Positions 5,228 through 32,430 of a stretch of DNA of 32,430 nt are shown piece after piece (position 1 is the first letter of the stretch; every line of letters begins with the position of its first letter). The stretch lies in the NCBI GenBank assembly GCA_902782245.1, contig CACZMI010000018.1:1-32430 (forward strand), written 5' to 3'. The DNA comes from an uncultured Bacteroidales bacterium (GTDB taxonomy: Bacteria; Bacteroidota; Bacteroidia; Bacteroidales; Bacteroidaceae). A program made the position numbers and the translations under genes. The notes under the pieces were generated by a model. The model was not told where the DNA came from. It made no database searches and saw only the letters and a list, made by a program, of their open reading frames with translations.

Positions 5228-5259
5228 TTTGTCAAATCCAAAAAACAGCACTACTTTTG
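5228..5259 (+). promoter_or_regulatory. Bacteroidetes-type promoter for the DUF4301 gene
   Basis: TTTG at 5228-5231 and TACTTTTG at 5252-5259 are separated by 20 bases, an exact match to the Bacteroidetes consensus. It places the transcription start near 5264 and rules out the upstream in-frame TTG at 5257 as the translation start, leaving the ATG at 5296. Confidence 0.7.
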
Positions 5260-5295
5260 ATACTCCAAAAAAGGACTCACAAAGTGTTTGTATAT

Positions 5296-6825
5296 ATGTT
5301 TGACGAGAAAGATCTGGAACAGTTTAAAAAGAAGGGTACATCGGCCGATAAAGTGAAGGCCCAGTTAGAGCTTATCCAGAAAGGTTTCCCCTTCCTTGAG
5401 TTGGAGGCCGCCGCATCCGTAGGCAACGGCATCATGGCAGTTGATGACAGTGAGTGTGACAAGTACATCAAGACCTGGGATGCATATTGCACGGGCAGCA
5501 AGCATATCATAACCAAGTTCGTACCCGCATCAGGCGCCGCAAGCCGCATGTTCAAGGATCTTTTCGGTTTCCTGGACGCAGGTTATGACACCCCCACCAC
5601 CCCGTTTGAGAAGACCTTCTTTGACAACATAGAGAAATTCGCTTTCTATAAGGAACTTGATGACGCCTGTCTCAAAAACAGCGGCAAATCCATAAAGGAC
5701 CTTATGGCCGATGCCCGGTACAAAGCAGTCGTAGCCAACCTGCTGGGTGCCGACGGACTCAACTACGGTGCACTGCCCAAGGGCCTGCTCAAGTTCCACA
5801 AATACGCAGCCGCCGCGCGCACACCCCTTGAGGAACATATGGCCGAGGGTGCACTTTACGCCACCGGTTCGGACGGATCGGTACATATACATTTTACCGT
5901 ATCACCCGAGCACAAGCAGTTGTTCAAGACACTGGCCGAGAGTTGTTCCAAGACACTTTCCAAACGCTACGGAACCACTTACAGCATATCGTTCTCCGAG
6001 CAGAAACCCAGCACCGATACGGTAGCCGCCGCTGCCGACGGCTCCGCCTTCCGCAATGACGACGGTTCCATACTGTTCCGTCCCGGAGGTCACGGCGCCC
6101 TCATTGAGAACCTCAATGACCTGGACACCGACATCGTCTTTATCAAGAATATTGACAATGTGGTACCCGATCATTTCAAGAACGACACCATCACCTATAA
6201 GAAGCTGCTTGCCGGAATTCTGGTAAGCATCCAGGAAAAGGTCTTTGAATACCTGCGGTTGCTTGACACTAAAAAGTACACCGATGCCCAACTCAGGAAA
6301 ATAACCGGTTTCGTACAGAATACCCTCTGCTGCCGATGCAAGGACCTTGCAGGCAAGACAGACAAGGAGTTGGCAGCATGGCTGCACGGCAAGCTGAACC
6401 GCCCCATCCGCGTATGCGGCATGGTAAAGAACGTGGGAGAGCCCGGCGGCGGTCCGTTCCTGGCATACAATGCCGACGGCACAGTATCACTCCAGATTCT
6501 TGAAAGCTCACAGATTGACCTGAATGATCCCGCCAAGAAGGAGATGTTCACCAAGGGCACCCACTTCAACCCCGTCGATCTGGTATGCGCCGTACGTAAT
6601 TATAAAGGTGGCTCATTCAACCTGCCGGACTACGTTGACAAATCCACAGGATTCATCTCAAGCAAATCCAAGAACGGCCGCGAACTCAAAGCCCTTGAGC
6701 TTCCCGGACTCTGGAACGGAGCCATGAGTGACTGGAACACCATCTTTGTCGAGGTGCCCCTATCCACTTTCAATCCTGTAAAAACGGTAAACGACCTGCT
6801 CCGCCCCCAGCATCAACCAGCATGA
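5296..6825 (+). CDS. DUF4301 family protein
   Basis: This is a soluble protein of 509 residues from the ATG at 5296 (MFDEKDLEQF). The frame is open further upstream to a TTG at 5257, but that codon sits inside the promoter. I recognise it as the Bacteroidetes DUF4301 family, whose function is unknown. Visible landmarks are a glycine/alanine-rich loop KFVPASGAASRMFKDL about 85 residues in, FRPGGHGALIENLNDLD near the middle, and MVKNVGEPGGGPFLAYNADG in the C-terminal third. The loop and the GEPGGGPF motif vaguely recall the nucleotide-binding segments of sugar-nucleotide pyrophosphorylases, which is a guess. There is no signal peptide or membrane segment. Its TGA stop is the first three bases of the 78-base palindrome that follows. 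Confidence 0.82.
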   Translation: MFDEKDLEQFKKKGTSADKVKAQLELIQKGFPFLELEAAASVGNGIMAVDDSECDKYIKTWDAYCTGSKHIITKFVPASGAASRMFKDLFGFLDAGYDTPTTPFEKTFFDNIEKFAFYKELDDACLKNSGKSIKDLMADARYKAVVANLLGADGLNYGALPKGLLKFHKYAAAARTPLEEHMAEGALYATGSDGSVHIHFTVSPEHKQLFKTLAESCSKTLSKRYGTTYSISFSEQKPSTDTVAAAADGSAFRNDDGSILFRPGGHGALIENLNDLDTDIVFIKNIDNVVPDHFKNDTITYKKLLAGILVSIQEKVFEYLRLLDTKKYTDAQLRKITGFVQNTLCCRCKDLAGKTDKELAAWLHGKLNRPIRVCGMVKNVGEPGGGPFLAYNADGTVSLQILESSQIDLNDPAKKEMFTKGTHFNPVDLVCAVRNYKGGSFNLPDYVDKSTGFISSKSKNGRELKALELPGLWNGAMSDWNTIFVEVPLSTFNPVKTVNDLLRPQHQPA

Positions 6826-6900
6826 TACCATTGGGGACGGTTCCGTTTGGTACTGTTTTTCGCGAAACAGTACCAAACGGAACCGTCCCCAATGGTATCA
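6823..6900. repeat. Perfect 78-base palindrome between convergent genes (REP/MITE-like)
   Basis: Two 36-base arms (6823-6858 and 6865-6900) are exact reverse complements around a 6-base loop (TTCGCG). Each arm begins TGATACCATTGGGGACGG when read inward. The first TGA is the stop codon of the DUF4301 gene and, on the other strand, the TGA of the opposite end is the stop codon of mltG. It could act as a bidirectional transcription terminator, but there is no terminal T-run outside the arms. The shared TGATAC-4 bases-GGGGAC start with the palindrome at 32027-32053 suggests a small family of REP-like elements. Confidence 0.9.
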
Positions 6901-7893
6901 CCGGATGCCGGCTTTGTCAAGAGCACGCTGGTAACGTGCCGCGTAGGCGTTGTGCTGCGACAGGGTTGTGCTGAAATAGTGTGACCCGCTGAAATCCTCC
7001 TTGGCAGAGAAATAGAGATAGTTGTGCTTTGTGTAATTGAGCACGGCATTGATGGACTGTGTGCTGACAAAGCGTATGGGGCCGGGAGGCAATCCGGGAT
7101 TCTTGTATGTATTATAAGGTGAGTCGTACTCCAGGTGTTTCTTGAGTACGCGTTTGGGACGCTCTCCACCCATTGCAAAAATCACAGTAGGACAAGCCTG
7201 CAGAGGCAGTTTCTTCTTGAGGCGGTTCATATAGACGCCCGCAATTATGGGGAACTCGTCAAGTTTTGCGGTCTCCTCTTCAATGATTGATGCAAGAATG
7301 ATCACTTCATCCTCAGTAAGGCCGATGGATTTGGCCTTGGCTTTGCGCTCATCGGTCCAGAAGCGGTTGCGTTCCTTTACCAGACGGCTTAGGATTGAGC
7401 TGGCCGATGAGTTCCAGTATACCTCATATGTATTGGGGATGATCATGCAGTATACATTGGTGGGGGTGTACCCCATTGAGTCCAGGAATTGGGGACTGGT
7501 AAGGCGGCTGGCAATGGCGGCCGAATCAACCATCACCTGGTTTGCTATGGCGCGGGCCATCTGACCTATTGTGCGGGTGCTGTTTATGGTAAGGCGGACC
7601 GGGGTCTGGCTGCCGCTCAGCAGCATATCGGACACCTGTTTGGGGGTGGCTCCGCTCTTTACAGTGTAACATCCGGTGTGAATGTGCTCATCGTAGTCAC
7701 GGTGCTCCAGTAGAAAATTCAGGGGTTTGGTGTTTGCCTGGGGATCAGCCTCCAGAATGGATTGTATTATGGTTTCACGTGTATCGGCCGGACGGATATA
7801 GATCCTGTAGTCGGGGCATTCCGATACGGGTTTGTTGAATGAACATGCCGAAAAGAACAGCAGTGTAGCAATTATCAATAATCCCTTTTTCAT
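6898..7893 (-). CDS. mltG: Endolytic murein transglycosylase MltG-like lipoprotein
   Basis: MltG cleaves nascent glycan strands in peptidoglycan and so helps set glycan length. I chose the ATG at 7893 (331 residues, MKKGLLIIATLLFFSAC). The in-frame GTG at 7911 lies upstream of the promoter-like box and lengthens the signal awkwardly. The start gives a lipoprotein signal with Cys17, whereas the E. coli enzyme is anchored by a transmembrane helix. The YceG/MltG domain covers about 90-325. The catalytic Glu is in ASIIEEET (about Glu205), followed by YMNRLKKKLPLQACPTV. The usual Asp of LQ.DPTV is Cys here. The C-terminal SPYNTYKNPGLPPGPI and FSGSHYFSTTLSQHN motifs are conserved. Its TGA is contributed by the palindrome at 6823-6900. 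Confidence 0.9.
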   Translation of the reverse strand: MKKGLLIIATLLFFSACSFNKPVSECPDYRIYIRPADTRETIIQSILEADPQANTKPLNFLLEHRDYDEHIHTGCYTVKSGATPKQVSDMLLSGSQTPVRLTINSTRTIGQMARAIANQVMVDSAAIASRLTSPQFLDSMGYTPTNVYCMIIPNTYEVYWNSSASSILSRLVKERNRFWTDERKAKAKSIGLTEDEVIILASIIEEETAKLDEFPIIAGVYMNRLKKKLPLQACPTVIFAMGGERPKRVLKKHLEYDSPYNTYKNPGLPPGPIRFVSTQSINAVLNYTKHNYLYFSAKEDFSGSHYFSTTLSQHNAYAARYQRALDKAGIR

Positions 7894-7899
7894 ACTTTG

Positions 7900-7907
7900 C
7901 AAAGATA
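7900..7907 (-). promoter_or_regulatory. Candidate -7 box for mltG
   Basis: The minus strand reads TATCTTTG, an exact TAnnTTTG match, 6 bases upstream of the ATG at 7893. A start at the expected distance would leave almost no leader. No good -33 box is visible. Confidence 0.4.
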
Positions 7908-7989
7908 ACACTATCTTTAATAAATTGAAGATAACTGCGCCTCGGAATAAAAAATGAACAAGTTCCTTTTTTCTCCTCTCGGCTTGTAC

Positions 7990-7997
7990 TATCTTTG
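7990..7997 (+). promoter_or_regulatory. -7 box of the GH51 promoter
   Basis: TATCTTTG matches TAnnTTTG exactly, 22 bases before the ATG at 8020. A T-rich tract about 20 bases upstream (7967-7970, TTTT) may serve as a weak -33 element. Confidence 0.55.
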
Positions 7998-8019
7998 TAC
8001 AAACTACATCAATTAGACA

Positions 8020-9585
8020 ATGAGAAAAATCTTTTTCCTGCTCTCTCTGACGGCAGCTCTGTCAGTTAGCGCAAAGAATGAAGTTACGGTCAATGTTCAC
8101 GCCGACAAACCTGGTGCAACCATCAACAAGAACATTTACGGACAGTTCTCCGAGCATCTGGGTACATGCATCTACGGCGGTCTGTGGGTTGGTCCGGAGT
8201 CATCAATTCCCAATACAAACGGTTACCGCAATGATGTCCTTGAGGCTCTTAAGGAGCTTGAGGTTCCAGTAATGCGCTGGCCGGGCGGTTGCTATGCCGA
8301 TGAATATCACTGGATGGACGGCATAGGCCCCAAGGAGGATCGTCCCGTAATGGTTAACAACAACTGGGGCGGCATTGTTGAGGACAACAGCTTTGGTACA
8401 CATGAGTTCCTGAACCTTTGCGAGCTTATCGGCTGCGAGCCTTACATCTCACTGAACGTTGGCAGCGGATCAGTTGAGGAGGCTGCCAAGTGGATCGAGT
8501 ATATGAACGCCGCCGACGGTCCTATGGCCAAACTGCGCAAGCAGAACGGCCGTGAGGAGCCCTGGCACGTTAAATATATAGGTATAGGTAATGAGGCCTG
8601 GGGTTGCGGAGGCAACATGCTGCCCGAGTACTACTCGGATATTTTCCGCCGTTACCAGACCTACTGCCGCGATTACAACGGCACACAGCTCTTTAAGATT
8701 GCCAGCGGTGCCACCGATTATGACTATGAGTGGACCGATGTGCTGATGAAGAAAATCGGCTCTATGATGAACGCCGTTTCCCTGCATTACTATACCGTAT
8801 CAGGTTGGGTAGGTGCCAAGAAGCCCGCTCTGGACTTTACCGATGAGGATTTCTACTGGTGCCTGGGTAAGTGCCTTGGTATTGAGCCCGTTATCCAGAA
8901 GCATCTGGCCATAATGAGCAAGTATGACCCCGAGCACAAGACTCCGCTGCTGGTCGATGAGTGGGGCACATGGTGGGAGCCGGAGCCCGGCACACAGCTC
9001 TATCAGCAGAGCACCATGCGTGACGCTCTTGTGGCTTCACTGTCACTTGACGTGTTCCACAAGTACTGCGACCGTATCCAGATGACCAACATAGCCCAGG
9101 TTGCCAATGTACTCCAGTCAATGATCCTGACCAAGGATGACAAGATGGTACTCACCCCGACATACTGGATATTTGATATGTACAAGCCTCACATGGATGC
9201 CACCTACATCCCCACAGACCTTGAGGGCGTTGAGGTTAAGCTGACTCCTAACGAACGCTATGCCGCAAATCCTGATGAGACCGCTACGCGTCCGCTGCCG
9301 CTGTTCAGTTCAACTGCATCGACCAAGAACGGCAAACTGCATATCTCAATGTCAAACGTCAAACTGAACGAGGCTCAGAGCGTAACCGTAAAACTGGACG
9401 GCATCAAGGCCAAGAAGGTATCAGGTAAGATCCTTACCAGCGACAAGGCCAGCAACTACAACACCTTTGAGAATCCTGATAAGATCAAGTTGGCCGATTT
9501 TGACGGTGCCCGCATAGATAAGAAAACGGGAGACCTGATCCTTGAGATCCCCGCAGCAAGTATCGTTACCCTTGAGGTTGAATAA
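8020..9585 (+). CDS. Secreted GH51 alpha-L-arabinofuranosidase
   Basis: This 521-residue enzyme removes terminal alpha-L-arabinofuranosyl groups from arabinoxylan or arabinan. A signal peptide (residues 1-18, MRKIFFLLSLTAALSVSA) sends it to the periplasm or cell surface. The GH51 (beta/alpha)8 barrel carries NIYGQFSEHLG (about 38-48), MRWPGGCYADEYHW (85-98), the acid/base Glu192 in GIGNEAWG and the nucleophile Glu314 in LVDEWGTWW. The C-terminal beta-sandwich ends in a typical ASIVTLEVE strand. The length is normal for the family. It has its own promoter and a strong terminator after it. It pairs functionally with the GH10 xylanase downstream and the GH43 at 21195. The substrate is inferred from family and context; GH51 also contains a few endoglucanases, but the motifs here are the arabinofuranosidase type. 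Confidence 0.95.
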   Translation: MRKIFFLLSLTAALSVSAKNEVTVNVHADKPGATINKNIYGQFSEHLGTCIYGGLWVGPESSIPNTNGYRNDVLEALKELEVPVMRWPGGCYADEYHWMDGIGPKEDRPVMVNNNWGGIVEDNSFGTHEFLNLCELIGCEPYISLNVGSGSVEEAAKWIEYMNAADGPMAKLRKQNGREEPWHVKYIGIGNEAWGCGGNMLPEYYSDIFRRYQTYCRDYNGTQLFKIASGATDYDYEWTDVLMKKIGSMMNAVSLHYYTVSGWVGAKKPALDFTDEDFYWCLGKCLGIEPVIQKHLAIMSKYDPEHKTPLLVDEWGTWWEPEPGTQLYQQSTMRDALVASLSLDVFHKYCDRIQMTNIAQVANVLQSMILTKDDKMVLTPTYWIFDMYKPHMDATYIPTDLEGVEVKLTPNERYAANPDETATRPLPLFSSTASTKNGKLHISMSNVKLNEAQSVTVKLDGIKAKKVSGKILTSDKASNYNTFENPDKIKLADFDGARIDKKTGDLILEIPAASIVTLEVE

Positions 9586-9595
9586 AATAAACAAA

Positions 9596-9621
9596 GGTCG
9601 CTCAATTGAGCGGCCTTTTTT
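9596..9621 (+). terminator. Rho-independent terminator after GH51
   Basis: The inverted repeat GGTCGCTCAA/TTGAGCGGCC (one G-T pair, 9596-9615) is followed directly by six T residues. It begins 10 bases after the GH51 stop codon. Confidence 0.85.
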
Positions 9622-9623
9622 AT

Positions 9624-9631
9624 TATATTTG
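9624..9631 (+). promoter_or_regulatory. -7 box of the tRNA-Gly promoter
   Basis: TATATTTG is an exact TAnnTTTG match ending 11 bases before the tRNA 5' end, immediately after the GH51 terminator. It is the only such box between that terminator and the GH10 gene. Confidence 0.55.
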
Positions 9632-9642
9632 CATACACAATC

Positions 9643-9715
9643 GCGATAGTAGCTCAGTTGGTAGAGCGTTGGCTTCCCAAGCCGAAGGTCGCGGGATCGT
9701 GCCCCGTCTATCGCT
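9643..9715 (+). tRNA. tRNA-Gly, anticodon CCC
   Basis: A full cloverleaf of 73 bases is visible. The acceptor stem is GCGATAG/CTATCGC with discriminator T. The D arm is GCTC-AGTTGGTA-GAGC. The anticodon stem TTGGC/GCCGA (one G-T pair) encloses the loop TTCCCAA, giving anticodon CCC for GGG codons. The T stem is GCGGG/CCCGT. CCA is not encoded. The T loop is ATCGTGC rather than TTCGANN, so position 54 is A and 58 is U, a swap of the nearly universal T54-A58 pair. The GH10 gene starts 24 bases downstream with no terminator between them, so they may share a transcript. Confidence 0.95.
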
Positions 9716-9739
9716 CTAATTATTAACCACCAGACTATT

Positions 9740-12403: not shown

Positions 12404-12420
12404 CCTGTTACAGCATAACT

Positions 12421-12455
12421 AAAACGGGCTGGTCCATAAAGGATCAGCCCGTTTT
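12421..12455. terminator. Bidirectional terminator between GH10 and the 6S-like RNA
   Basis: A 15-base-pair stem, AAAACGGGCTGGTCC/GGATCAGCCCGTTTT with one G-T mismatch, closes a 5-base ATAAA loop. T residues follow the stem on both strands, so it can stop both the GH10 transcript and the minus-strand small RNA. Confidence 0.85.
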
Positions 12456-12462
12456 ATTATAA

Positions 12463-12656: not shown

Positions 12657-12693
12657 AAAAAAAGTGTCCGAATGGTCATCCGGACACTTTTTT
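12657..12693 (-). terminator. Terminator of the thrS-infC-rpmI-rplT operon
   Basis: A stem of AGTGTCCG/CGGACACT, extended by flanking A and T runs (about 13 base pairs in all), closes a 10-base loop. Poly-U follows it on the minus strand. It starts 17 bases after the rplT stop codon and looks able to work in both directions. Confidence 0.85.
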
Positions 12694-32017: not shown

Positions 32018-32026
32018 CCAAAATGA

Positions 32027-32053
32027 TACAAAAGGGGACAGACCCCTTTTGTA
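32027..32053. repeat. Short palindrome, REP-like or bidirectional terminator
   Basis: Arms TACAAAAGGGG (32027-32037) and CCCCTTTTGTA (32043-32053) are exact reverse complements around the loop ACAGA. It lies in the 42 bases between two convergent genes and could terminate both. Its left side, TGATAC-4 bases-GGGGAC, is the same as both ends of the larger palindrome at 6823-6900. Confidence 0.85.
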
Positions 32054-32059
32054 CTATTT

Positions 32060-32430
32060 TCAGAAAAGCATCTCGTAAGTGTCGTAGACTACTGATCTTG
32101 CGCCGAATCCCTCCTTCTGGAAAATGAGGCCCTCGTTCAGGTAACCGCCGCCGTTCTCGGTCGATACGCCGAAATCAAAATAGGTGCGGTCCGCATAGAC
32201 ATCGGTAATAAGAGTGTGAAGCAGCATATCCAGAGCGCCGTTGTTCTTTCCGAACTCCGATGACGCCAGATACTGCGTATGAACCACATGTCCCATATCA
32301 TAGATGAGCGCGCCCGCCACGACCTCGCTGCCGTTGCGGACAACGTGCAGTCTGATGCGGTCCGGGAATCGGCCCTGGAGCAGACGCAGTTCGGCAACCG
32401 TATGCACGGGTTTCTTCTTGTGCTTGGCCA
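32060..32430 (-). CDS. FemAB-like GNAT acetyltransferase, 5' end cut by window edge
   Basis: The frame is open from the right edge to a TGA at 32060, giving 122 whole codons of what must be the C-terminal part. An internal GTG at 32407 is not needed as a start because the frame continues upstream (AKHKKKPVHTV). The sequence, with HTQYLASSEFGKNNGALDMLL, YFDFGVSTENGGGYLNEGL and QKEGFGARSVVYDTYEM as landmarks, is the C-terminal GNAT fold of the FemAB/Acetyltransf_6-type family common in Bacteroidetes, where DFG.S and N.GL..QKEGFGA are conserved. Such proteins transfer aminoacyl or acyl groups in envelope or glycan assembly; the substrate is unknown. It converges on rlmH across the palindrome at 32027-32053. 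Confidence 0.8.
   Translation of the reverse strand, partial: AKHKKKPVHTVAELRLLQGRFPDRIRLHVVRNGSEVVAGALIYDMGHVVHTQYLASSEFGKNNGALDMLLHTLITDVYADRTYFDFGVSTENGGGYLNEGLIFQKEGFGARSVVYDTYEMLF

Follow-up and report, generated by a model that had tools for sequence, protein, structure and literature searches.

Is the long perfect palindrome between the convergent genes for a DUF4301 protein and for MltG a terminator private to this locus, or is it one copy of an element that spreads through the genome? We followed this question in the window, i.e., the whole 32,430-nt stretch of DNA that was analyzed, and from there into the host genome and its relatives (features of the window in Table 1). The initial annotation had described 36-base arms matching perfectly around a 6-base loop, without a flanking T-run, and this description is exact: the arms are 100% complementary, and the single T5 (6856-6860) lies inside the palindrome beside the loop, with none outside the arms. 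At loops of up to 8 nt, this arm is the longest perfect one in the window, against 8-10 in 20 mononucleotide shuffles, and as RNA the palindrome is predicted to fold with -68.6 kcal/mol (z -15.7). The arrangement of an intrinsic terminator, a GC hairpin followed by a T-run, is absent here, and a terminator scan of the window gave no match at the palindrome. An Rfam identity was rejected as well: the best matches were microRNA hairpin families, all below their thresholds (mir-2574 reached 51 bits at a gathering score of 90, E 2.6e-10), which we take as an effect of the long perfect hairpin.

Table 1. Coordinates of the palindrome, its parts and the neighboring features in the window.
Feature	Position	Strand	Basis
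DUF4301 gene	5257..6825	+	PF14134, E 2.6e-235; ends at TGA 6823-6825
TGA, element terminus and DUF4301 stop codon	6823..6825	+	sequence, ORF list
Unit 1 (GGGGACGGTTCCG subfamily), left arm of the palindrome	6823..6858	+	inverted-repeat search
Loop TTCGCG, 6 nt, separating units 1 and 2	6859..6864	.	sequence
Unit 2, right arm of the palindrome, inverted copy of unit 1	6865..6900	-	inverted-repeat search
TGA, element terminus and mltG stop codon	6898..6900	-	sequence, ORF list
mltG/yceG (YceG/MltG) gene	6898..7911	-	PF02618, E 8.9e-77; ends at TGA 6900-6898
Segment inverted relative to G002, G010, G011, G036 and G017: mltG, arabinofuranosidase (8020-9585), tRNA-Gly (9643-9716)	6901..9716	.	gene places, blastn synteny, tRNA, junction sequences
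Second unit of the window, single, ACAA...GGGGACAGACCCC subfamily, AAAA/TTTT flanks, between two convergent frames	32020..32061	+	folds alone, -18.7 kcal/mol

Two further features of the window were recorded beside the palindrome. A promoter-like match on the minus strand (6892-6920: TTGACA, 17 nt, TACCAT; 10/12, a consensus match only) overlaps its right end. Shorter inverted repeats lie at 9590-9621, 12420-12456 and 12658-12693; two of them end in T-runs, and they look like ordinary terminators.

A search of the host and related genomes for the arm sequence returned many copies in both. In the host genome (G000; 2.51 Mb in 98 contigs, 86% complete), the 78-mer gave 27 matches, and a covariance model built from 28 units gave 164, with 150 of 1396 candidates scored. 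The pattern TACMAWWGGGGHCNGNYCCSWWTKGTA, allowing up to 3 mismatches, matched 133 times in forward and 134 times in reverse orientation, against 1 and 1 for a backwards control; since most listed units match on both strands, we arrive at about 134 units. Among the 61 genomes compared, 20 of the 37 of the genus (own genome included) contain 16-160 forward pattern matches and the remaining 17 contain 0-7, while the 24 genomes outside the genus, which represent other families of the order, contain 0-1. Thirty-five nucleotides of unit 1 (6826-6860) recur identically, as a lone unit, at G000:C2:159345, and an identical 77-nt dimer is found at C21 and C63 within different flanks, which speaks for copying. 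The palindrome of the window is a head-to-head dimer of a repeat unit of about 36-41 nt and no private terminator. Our searches of open-licence PMC papers on REP-type repeats of Bacteroidetes or rumen bacteria, and on palindromes with stop codons or in-frame copies, gave no prior report of this repeat family.

One unit comprises about 34 nt, TGATAC...GTACTAT, usually with AAAA on its 5' and TTTT on its 3' side; its ends read TGATAC/TAGTAC...GTATCA/GTACTA. Subfamilies differ in the center of the unit. Within about 360 kb fetched around the units, 119 of the roughly 134 could be mapped, comprising 59 of an ACAA/GGACAGACC type, 29 of an ACCA/GGCCTGACC type, 15 of an ACAA/GGACAGTCC type and 3 of the GACGG type found at the palindrome. 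Folding separates two kinds of unit. Those of the common ACAA type are self-complementary and fold alone (-18.1 and -18.7 kcal/mol, z -6.7 and -5.8), whereas the GACGG type folds only as an inverted pair: a single GACGG unit has no fold of its own (z 0.47 and -0.48 in two cuts), and the pair folds strongly. In the 774 kb fetched of the related genome G010, GACGG is the main type, with 80 units in total; these form 32 neighboring pairs (24 of them head-to-head), and 14 stand alone. Some pairs in G010 enclose a spacer with a hairpin and a T-run. At one pair of loci of the host genome (L172:446 and L178:2503, on C54 and C72) both flanks are near-identical. One locus carries an ACCA-type dimer and the other an ACAA-type dimer, which looks like an exchange of element type between loci that are duplicates or strain variants.

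The initial annotation had also proposed to look for a Y1 transposase. A single Y1_Tnp gene was detected in G000 (C57:4740-5591; PF01797 over cut-off), and units of the same kind lie directly on both sides of it. The NCBIfam model for REP-associated tyrosine transposases matches this gene with E 5.9e-14, yet stays under its cut-off (52 vs 80 bits). The 265-aa protein carries the motifs NHVH, YIHQNP, FQ and SS and a C-terminal helical tail with predicted helices at 229-243, 246-253 and 257-264, where HTH_38 matches below its curated cut-off (E 0.012). For a 92%-identical relative, modeled from 30 sequences with a mean pLDDT of 87.8, the best structural match was to TnpAREP in complex with a REP hairpin (4er8, E 6.9e-7); the IS608, IS200 and ISDra2 transposases came next.

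The association of transposase and repeats extends beyond the host. At 12 congeneric transposase loci, its own included, a unit or unit-like repeat was present on at least one side in 12/12 and on both sides in 8/12, and the flanking subfamily varies among these loci. Those close relatives that are named are MAGs of Bacteroidaceae/Bacteroidales, and several bear isolate names that refer to ruminants or the horse gut. Wider relatives of the transposase from Prevotella-like bacteria and Clostridia showed flanking inverted repeats at 57 of 70 loci, 38 with a GGGG motif, compared with 0/70 in the shuffled control (for each locus, one flank was shuffled 10 times and the best result taken). Of 80 loci, 72 entered this comparison; two partial matches were left out, as were six loci whose gene lay about 205 nt or less from the end of a contig, and the flanks of 2 more were short. 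Transposase matches above 100 bits came from 22 of the 37 congeneric genomes and from 0 of the 24 others. Within the genus, the two are not fully in step, which counts against a tight link: six genomes hold 16-78 units without such a match (G006, G008, G009, G019, G026, G033), and eight hold a match but only 0-7 units (G007, G013, G015, G016, G018, G024, G027, G031), in a comparison in which many assemblies are incomplete. Moreover, the sole transposase found in the 86%-complete host assembly is flanked by the GGCCTGACC subfamily and not by the GACGG type of the palindrome (3/119 mapped units).

Taken together, the copies in the host and its relatives and the Y1 transposase between similar units support the mobile, dispersed element that the initial annotation had suggested. 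We consider it highly likely that the palindrome consists of two copies, head to head, of a small mobile element that is non-autonomous and belongs to a family of gene-end units that are moved by a Y1 transposase and mostly carry stop codons at their ends. The Y1 (HUH) transposase, of the REP/TIR-associated type, would most likely copy or move the units as single-stranded hairpins; mobility itself is seen here as presence and absence of units between species. Units settle mainly just behind genes, and most element ends, read inwards as AAAA-TGATAC or AAAA-TAGTAC, carry a stop codon. If an insertion cuts the stop codon of a gene, the A-run restores a stop, so that the end of the neighboring gene shifts by no more than a few residues. 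As both halves are predicted to pair in RNA from either side, the dimer likely acts as a bidirectional 3'-end hairpin now.

Positions and reading frames of the copies bear on this proposal. In the 360 kb there are 100 elements (81 single, 19 double). The frames on either side are co-directional for 45 of them, convergent for 36 and divergent for 7; another 9 elements lie inside a frame, and 3 are undecided. The frames are ORFs called by length alone, and some of those 9 are spurious. Convergent positions exceed divergent ones (36 vs 7, P = 9e-6). At the outer ends, 159 of 200 triplets read TGA, TAG or TAA (TAG 60), and the remaining 41 read CAG, TGG or other triplets that are no stop. Among 136 frames of at least 80 codons that extend to 33 nt or less from an element, the terminal triplet itself is the stop of 66 (46 TGA, 18 TAG, 2 TAA). 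A further 23 end at a TAA no more than 4 nt away that overlaps the A-run and 33 at another stop ahead of the core, whereas 14 continue further inwards. Simulated insertion of the consensus unit at each of the 15 final positions of 176 gene ends that lack an element resulted in 818 core stops (31%), 1607 read-throughs (61%) and 215 other outcomes, against which the observed 66 core stops and 14 read-throughs stand out (P = 4e-19); when the simulated insertion fell inside the stop codon, a stop was retained in every case. Supplying stops is a trait of the repeat family. At seven loci, 6823-6900 included, both neighbors are stopped by element ends, two of these (C24, C35) being a pair of units about 108 nt apart.

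For the palindrome itself, the ORF ends at 6823-6825 and 6900-6898 agree with the claim that its outermost TGAs are the stop codons of the two neighbors. The accompanying suggestion that the element might have clipped these genes was rejected, as the C-termini are not shortened relative to their orthologs. The end position of DUF4301 is shared by 22 of 27 usable ortholog loci (from 30 rows, of which L078 is cut by a contig end and L062 and L108 represent one G009 locus with Ns), and that of MltG by 16 of 30 rows, with 26 of 30 at most one residue off (one G009 locus is included twice). Gene ends are thus preserved despite insertion, at the window locus and in the statistics above, presumably for a selective reason.

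Such conserved ends are also what would be seen if the stops were the host genes' own, the element inserting beside stop codons with TGA as part of its target site and supplying none. Orthologs end at the same place; in G010, DUF4301 and mltG both end in TGA at the same residues with the element absent; and at C57:4071 an old TGA is retained upstream of the unit. The TGAs of the window copy could be ancestral stops of the two genes that met an element starting at TAC. Against this account stand the stop triplets at 159/200 element ends, with TAG in 60 and an A-run before them, and two pairs of loci read by eye: at the empty/occupied pair C34:24113 the stop has moved from LKQ* to LK*, with a new TAG inside the unit, and at C63:1223 the protein ends 7 residues earlier, within the unit. 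We regard it as somewhat unlikely that the element supplies no stops.

Further insight into the turnover of sites was obtained from G010, in which 19 of 96 elements could be mapped within the 774 kb; 9 of the 19 lie on C57, the contig of the transposase itself, and the rate of shared sites may not hold genome-wide. Eight of the counterpart sites are empty, ten hold another subfamily (one, C18:32027, degenerate) at or near the same place, and one holds the same core inverted (C3:45638). These states were assigned by a motif test, except for C57:4719, which was assigned by eye as occupied, giving 11 occupied and 8 empty sites. At C34:25988 (L161 around 6589), G010 is without the unit but has its last 8 nt, ACTATTTT, apparently including the TAG of the neighboring gene, which is possibly an excision scar. 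For REPs, it has been published that orthologous RAYT genes can have different REPs and that an "orthoswitch" can be followed by partial replacement (PMC3686654).

The palindrome locus has a history of its own. In G002, G010, G011, G036 and G017, the order is DUF4301, tRNA-Gly, arabinofuranosidase and then mltG on the strand of DUF4301, whereas the window and G009 have this block the other way round, with mltG facing DUF4301. The palindrome lies at the left breakpoint of this inversion of about 2.8 kb; the dimer sits between two convergent genes that the inversion joined, and its outer TGAs end both. Behind DUF4301, G010 is empty (GCG TGA GCGATAG), and G002, G011 and G036 carry single units between T and GAGCGATAG. 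The inversion possibly arose through recombination between two units, because G002 has units behind both DUF4301 and mltG; at the other breakpoint, the tRNA-Gly end (9716), the window holds no unit. G009, with the same inverted junction, carries a single unit of a subfamily unlike that of the window dimer, and the site was therefore probably occupied before. Judging from these junctions, the present dimer probably replaced an earlier unit or arrived by exchange. The initial annotation had called the element mobile or recently placed; its copies and the transposase uphold the first part, and the G009 unit makes the second doubtful.

Sites that persist while their occupants change invite a tentative, rather unlikely extension of our proposal, namely that the units are exchangeable gene-end cassettes whose sites are kept over species divergence while the subfamily is swapped, each supplying a stop and a two-way 3' hairpin. 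At C34:25988, an element-derived TAG appears to have been kept after loss of the unit. If this holds, a co-evolving transposase would shape where many genes of the genus have their stop codon and where their transcripts end.

The spread of copies could also be explained by homologous exchange or gene conversion among existing palindromes, with the linked Y1 gene as an incidental passenger. Occupation of 11/19 sites in G010 as well, 10 by another subfamily at or near the same place, the different subfamilies at the window site in G000 and G009, and the genomes rich in units without a close transposase match are in line with this. However, 8/19 sites are empty in G010, all 12 fetched transposase genes have a unit or unit-like repeat beside them, and conversion between diverged palindromes of about 40 bp would seem unlikely; we therefore hold spread by exchange alone to be improbable. 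A local, immobile intrinsic terminator that is perfectly palindromic by chance fits the position between two convergent stops, and at C37:39601 (L164:2502 vs L223) G010 has an ordinary hairpin terminator with a T-run where G000 has a dimer between convergent genes, so units may assume this role, but the lack of a T-run and of a scan match at the palindrome speaks against it, and about 134 dispersed copies with a linked transposase refute it as a full explanation and leave it very improbable.

In addition to the mobile gene-end units proposed here, there are copies within coding sequences. In manC, two loops contain units that are translated in frame, and the same holds for the feoA-feoB linker, a PARG-like gene and a GATase_3 gene. 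In manC, unit-type peptides from different subfamilies were seen by eye in 6 of 15 aligned genomes, the G009 row having been dropped due to Ns. Simple insertion is weakened as an explanation: at loop 1 of manC the G010 stretch is equal in length (43 nt), the feoAB linker measures 57 vs 87 nt in the comparison with G010, and in both comparisons made the net length change is smaller than the inserted unit. Hence host sequence gave way to the copies, or else decayed copies persist in the relatives. The PARG-type gene with the in-frame unit (L167:6902-7912) also has a tandem in-frame peptide repeat (IFRDGAYRTETDRVVTL).

Its abundance, its variation between related species, its position at gene ends and its in-frame entry into proteins make the repeat family a natural system in which to ask what guides TIR/REP-type repeats to their sites, and whether such repeats are retained as combined stop and terminator parts.

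Among known systems, GTAG REPs and REPINs with RAYTs resemble it, being described in PMC3733652 and PMC3686654 as dispersed palindromes, single and in inverted pairs, mostly extragenic near gene 3' ends. Novelty is moderate, since REP termini that often give stop codons are in print for GTAG REPs, and REPs within genes are already known (both in PMC3733652). Unlike the GTAG REPs of those papers, the units here end in TGATAC or TAGTAC, with neither GTAG nor CGTC at the unit end. With the Rickettsia palindromic elements, as outlined in PMC3733652, they share copies translated in frame in ordinary genes (here manC, feoAB, PARG-like and GATase_3); they differ from that outline in lacking the CGTC tag and in having a linked transposase.

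The family is best filed as a new one of TIRYT-type (TIR-associated Y1 transposase) repeats. As in the TIRtrons and TIRYT TIR repeats described by Di Nocera et al. 2013 (PMC3733652), a Y1 gene is flanked by inverted repeats, and the same repeats are dispersed in the genome; the families described there are likewise moderately abundant and occur as singles, dimers and clusters. Several of the flanking repeats printed there share GGGGWSAS, which is present in our common subfamilies (GGGGTCAG, GGGGACAG). Our family differs from those described there by its host, a Bacteroidales genus in which single genomes hold up to 160 pattern matches, by its two kinds of unit and by the window subfamily GGGGACGG, which misses GGGGWSAS by one base.

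Compared by motifs and length, the transposase shares YIHQNP with subclass TnpAY1 2.6, as characterized in PMC6006769, but 2.6 has WQ and a median length of 179 aa. With TnpAY1 2.1 of the same paper it shares NHVH, FQ and SS, and its 265 aa include a helical tail at the C-terminus as in that subclass. For the C-terminal helix-turn-helix domain of 2.1, the protein offers the three predicted helices and the HTH_38 match below cut-off. The paper reports subclass 2.1 to be without REP-like sequences near the gene, whereas units abut the transposase here, and our findings thus bear on that published claim.
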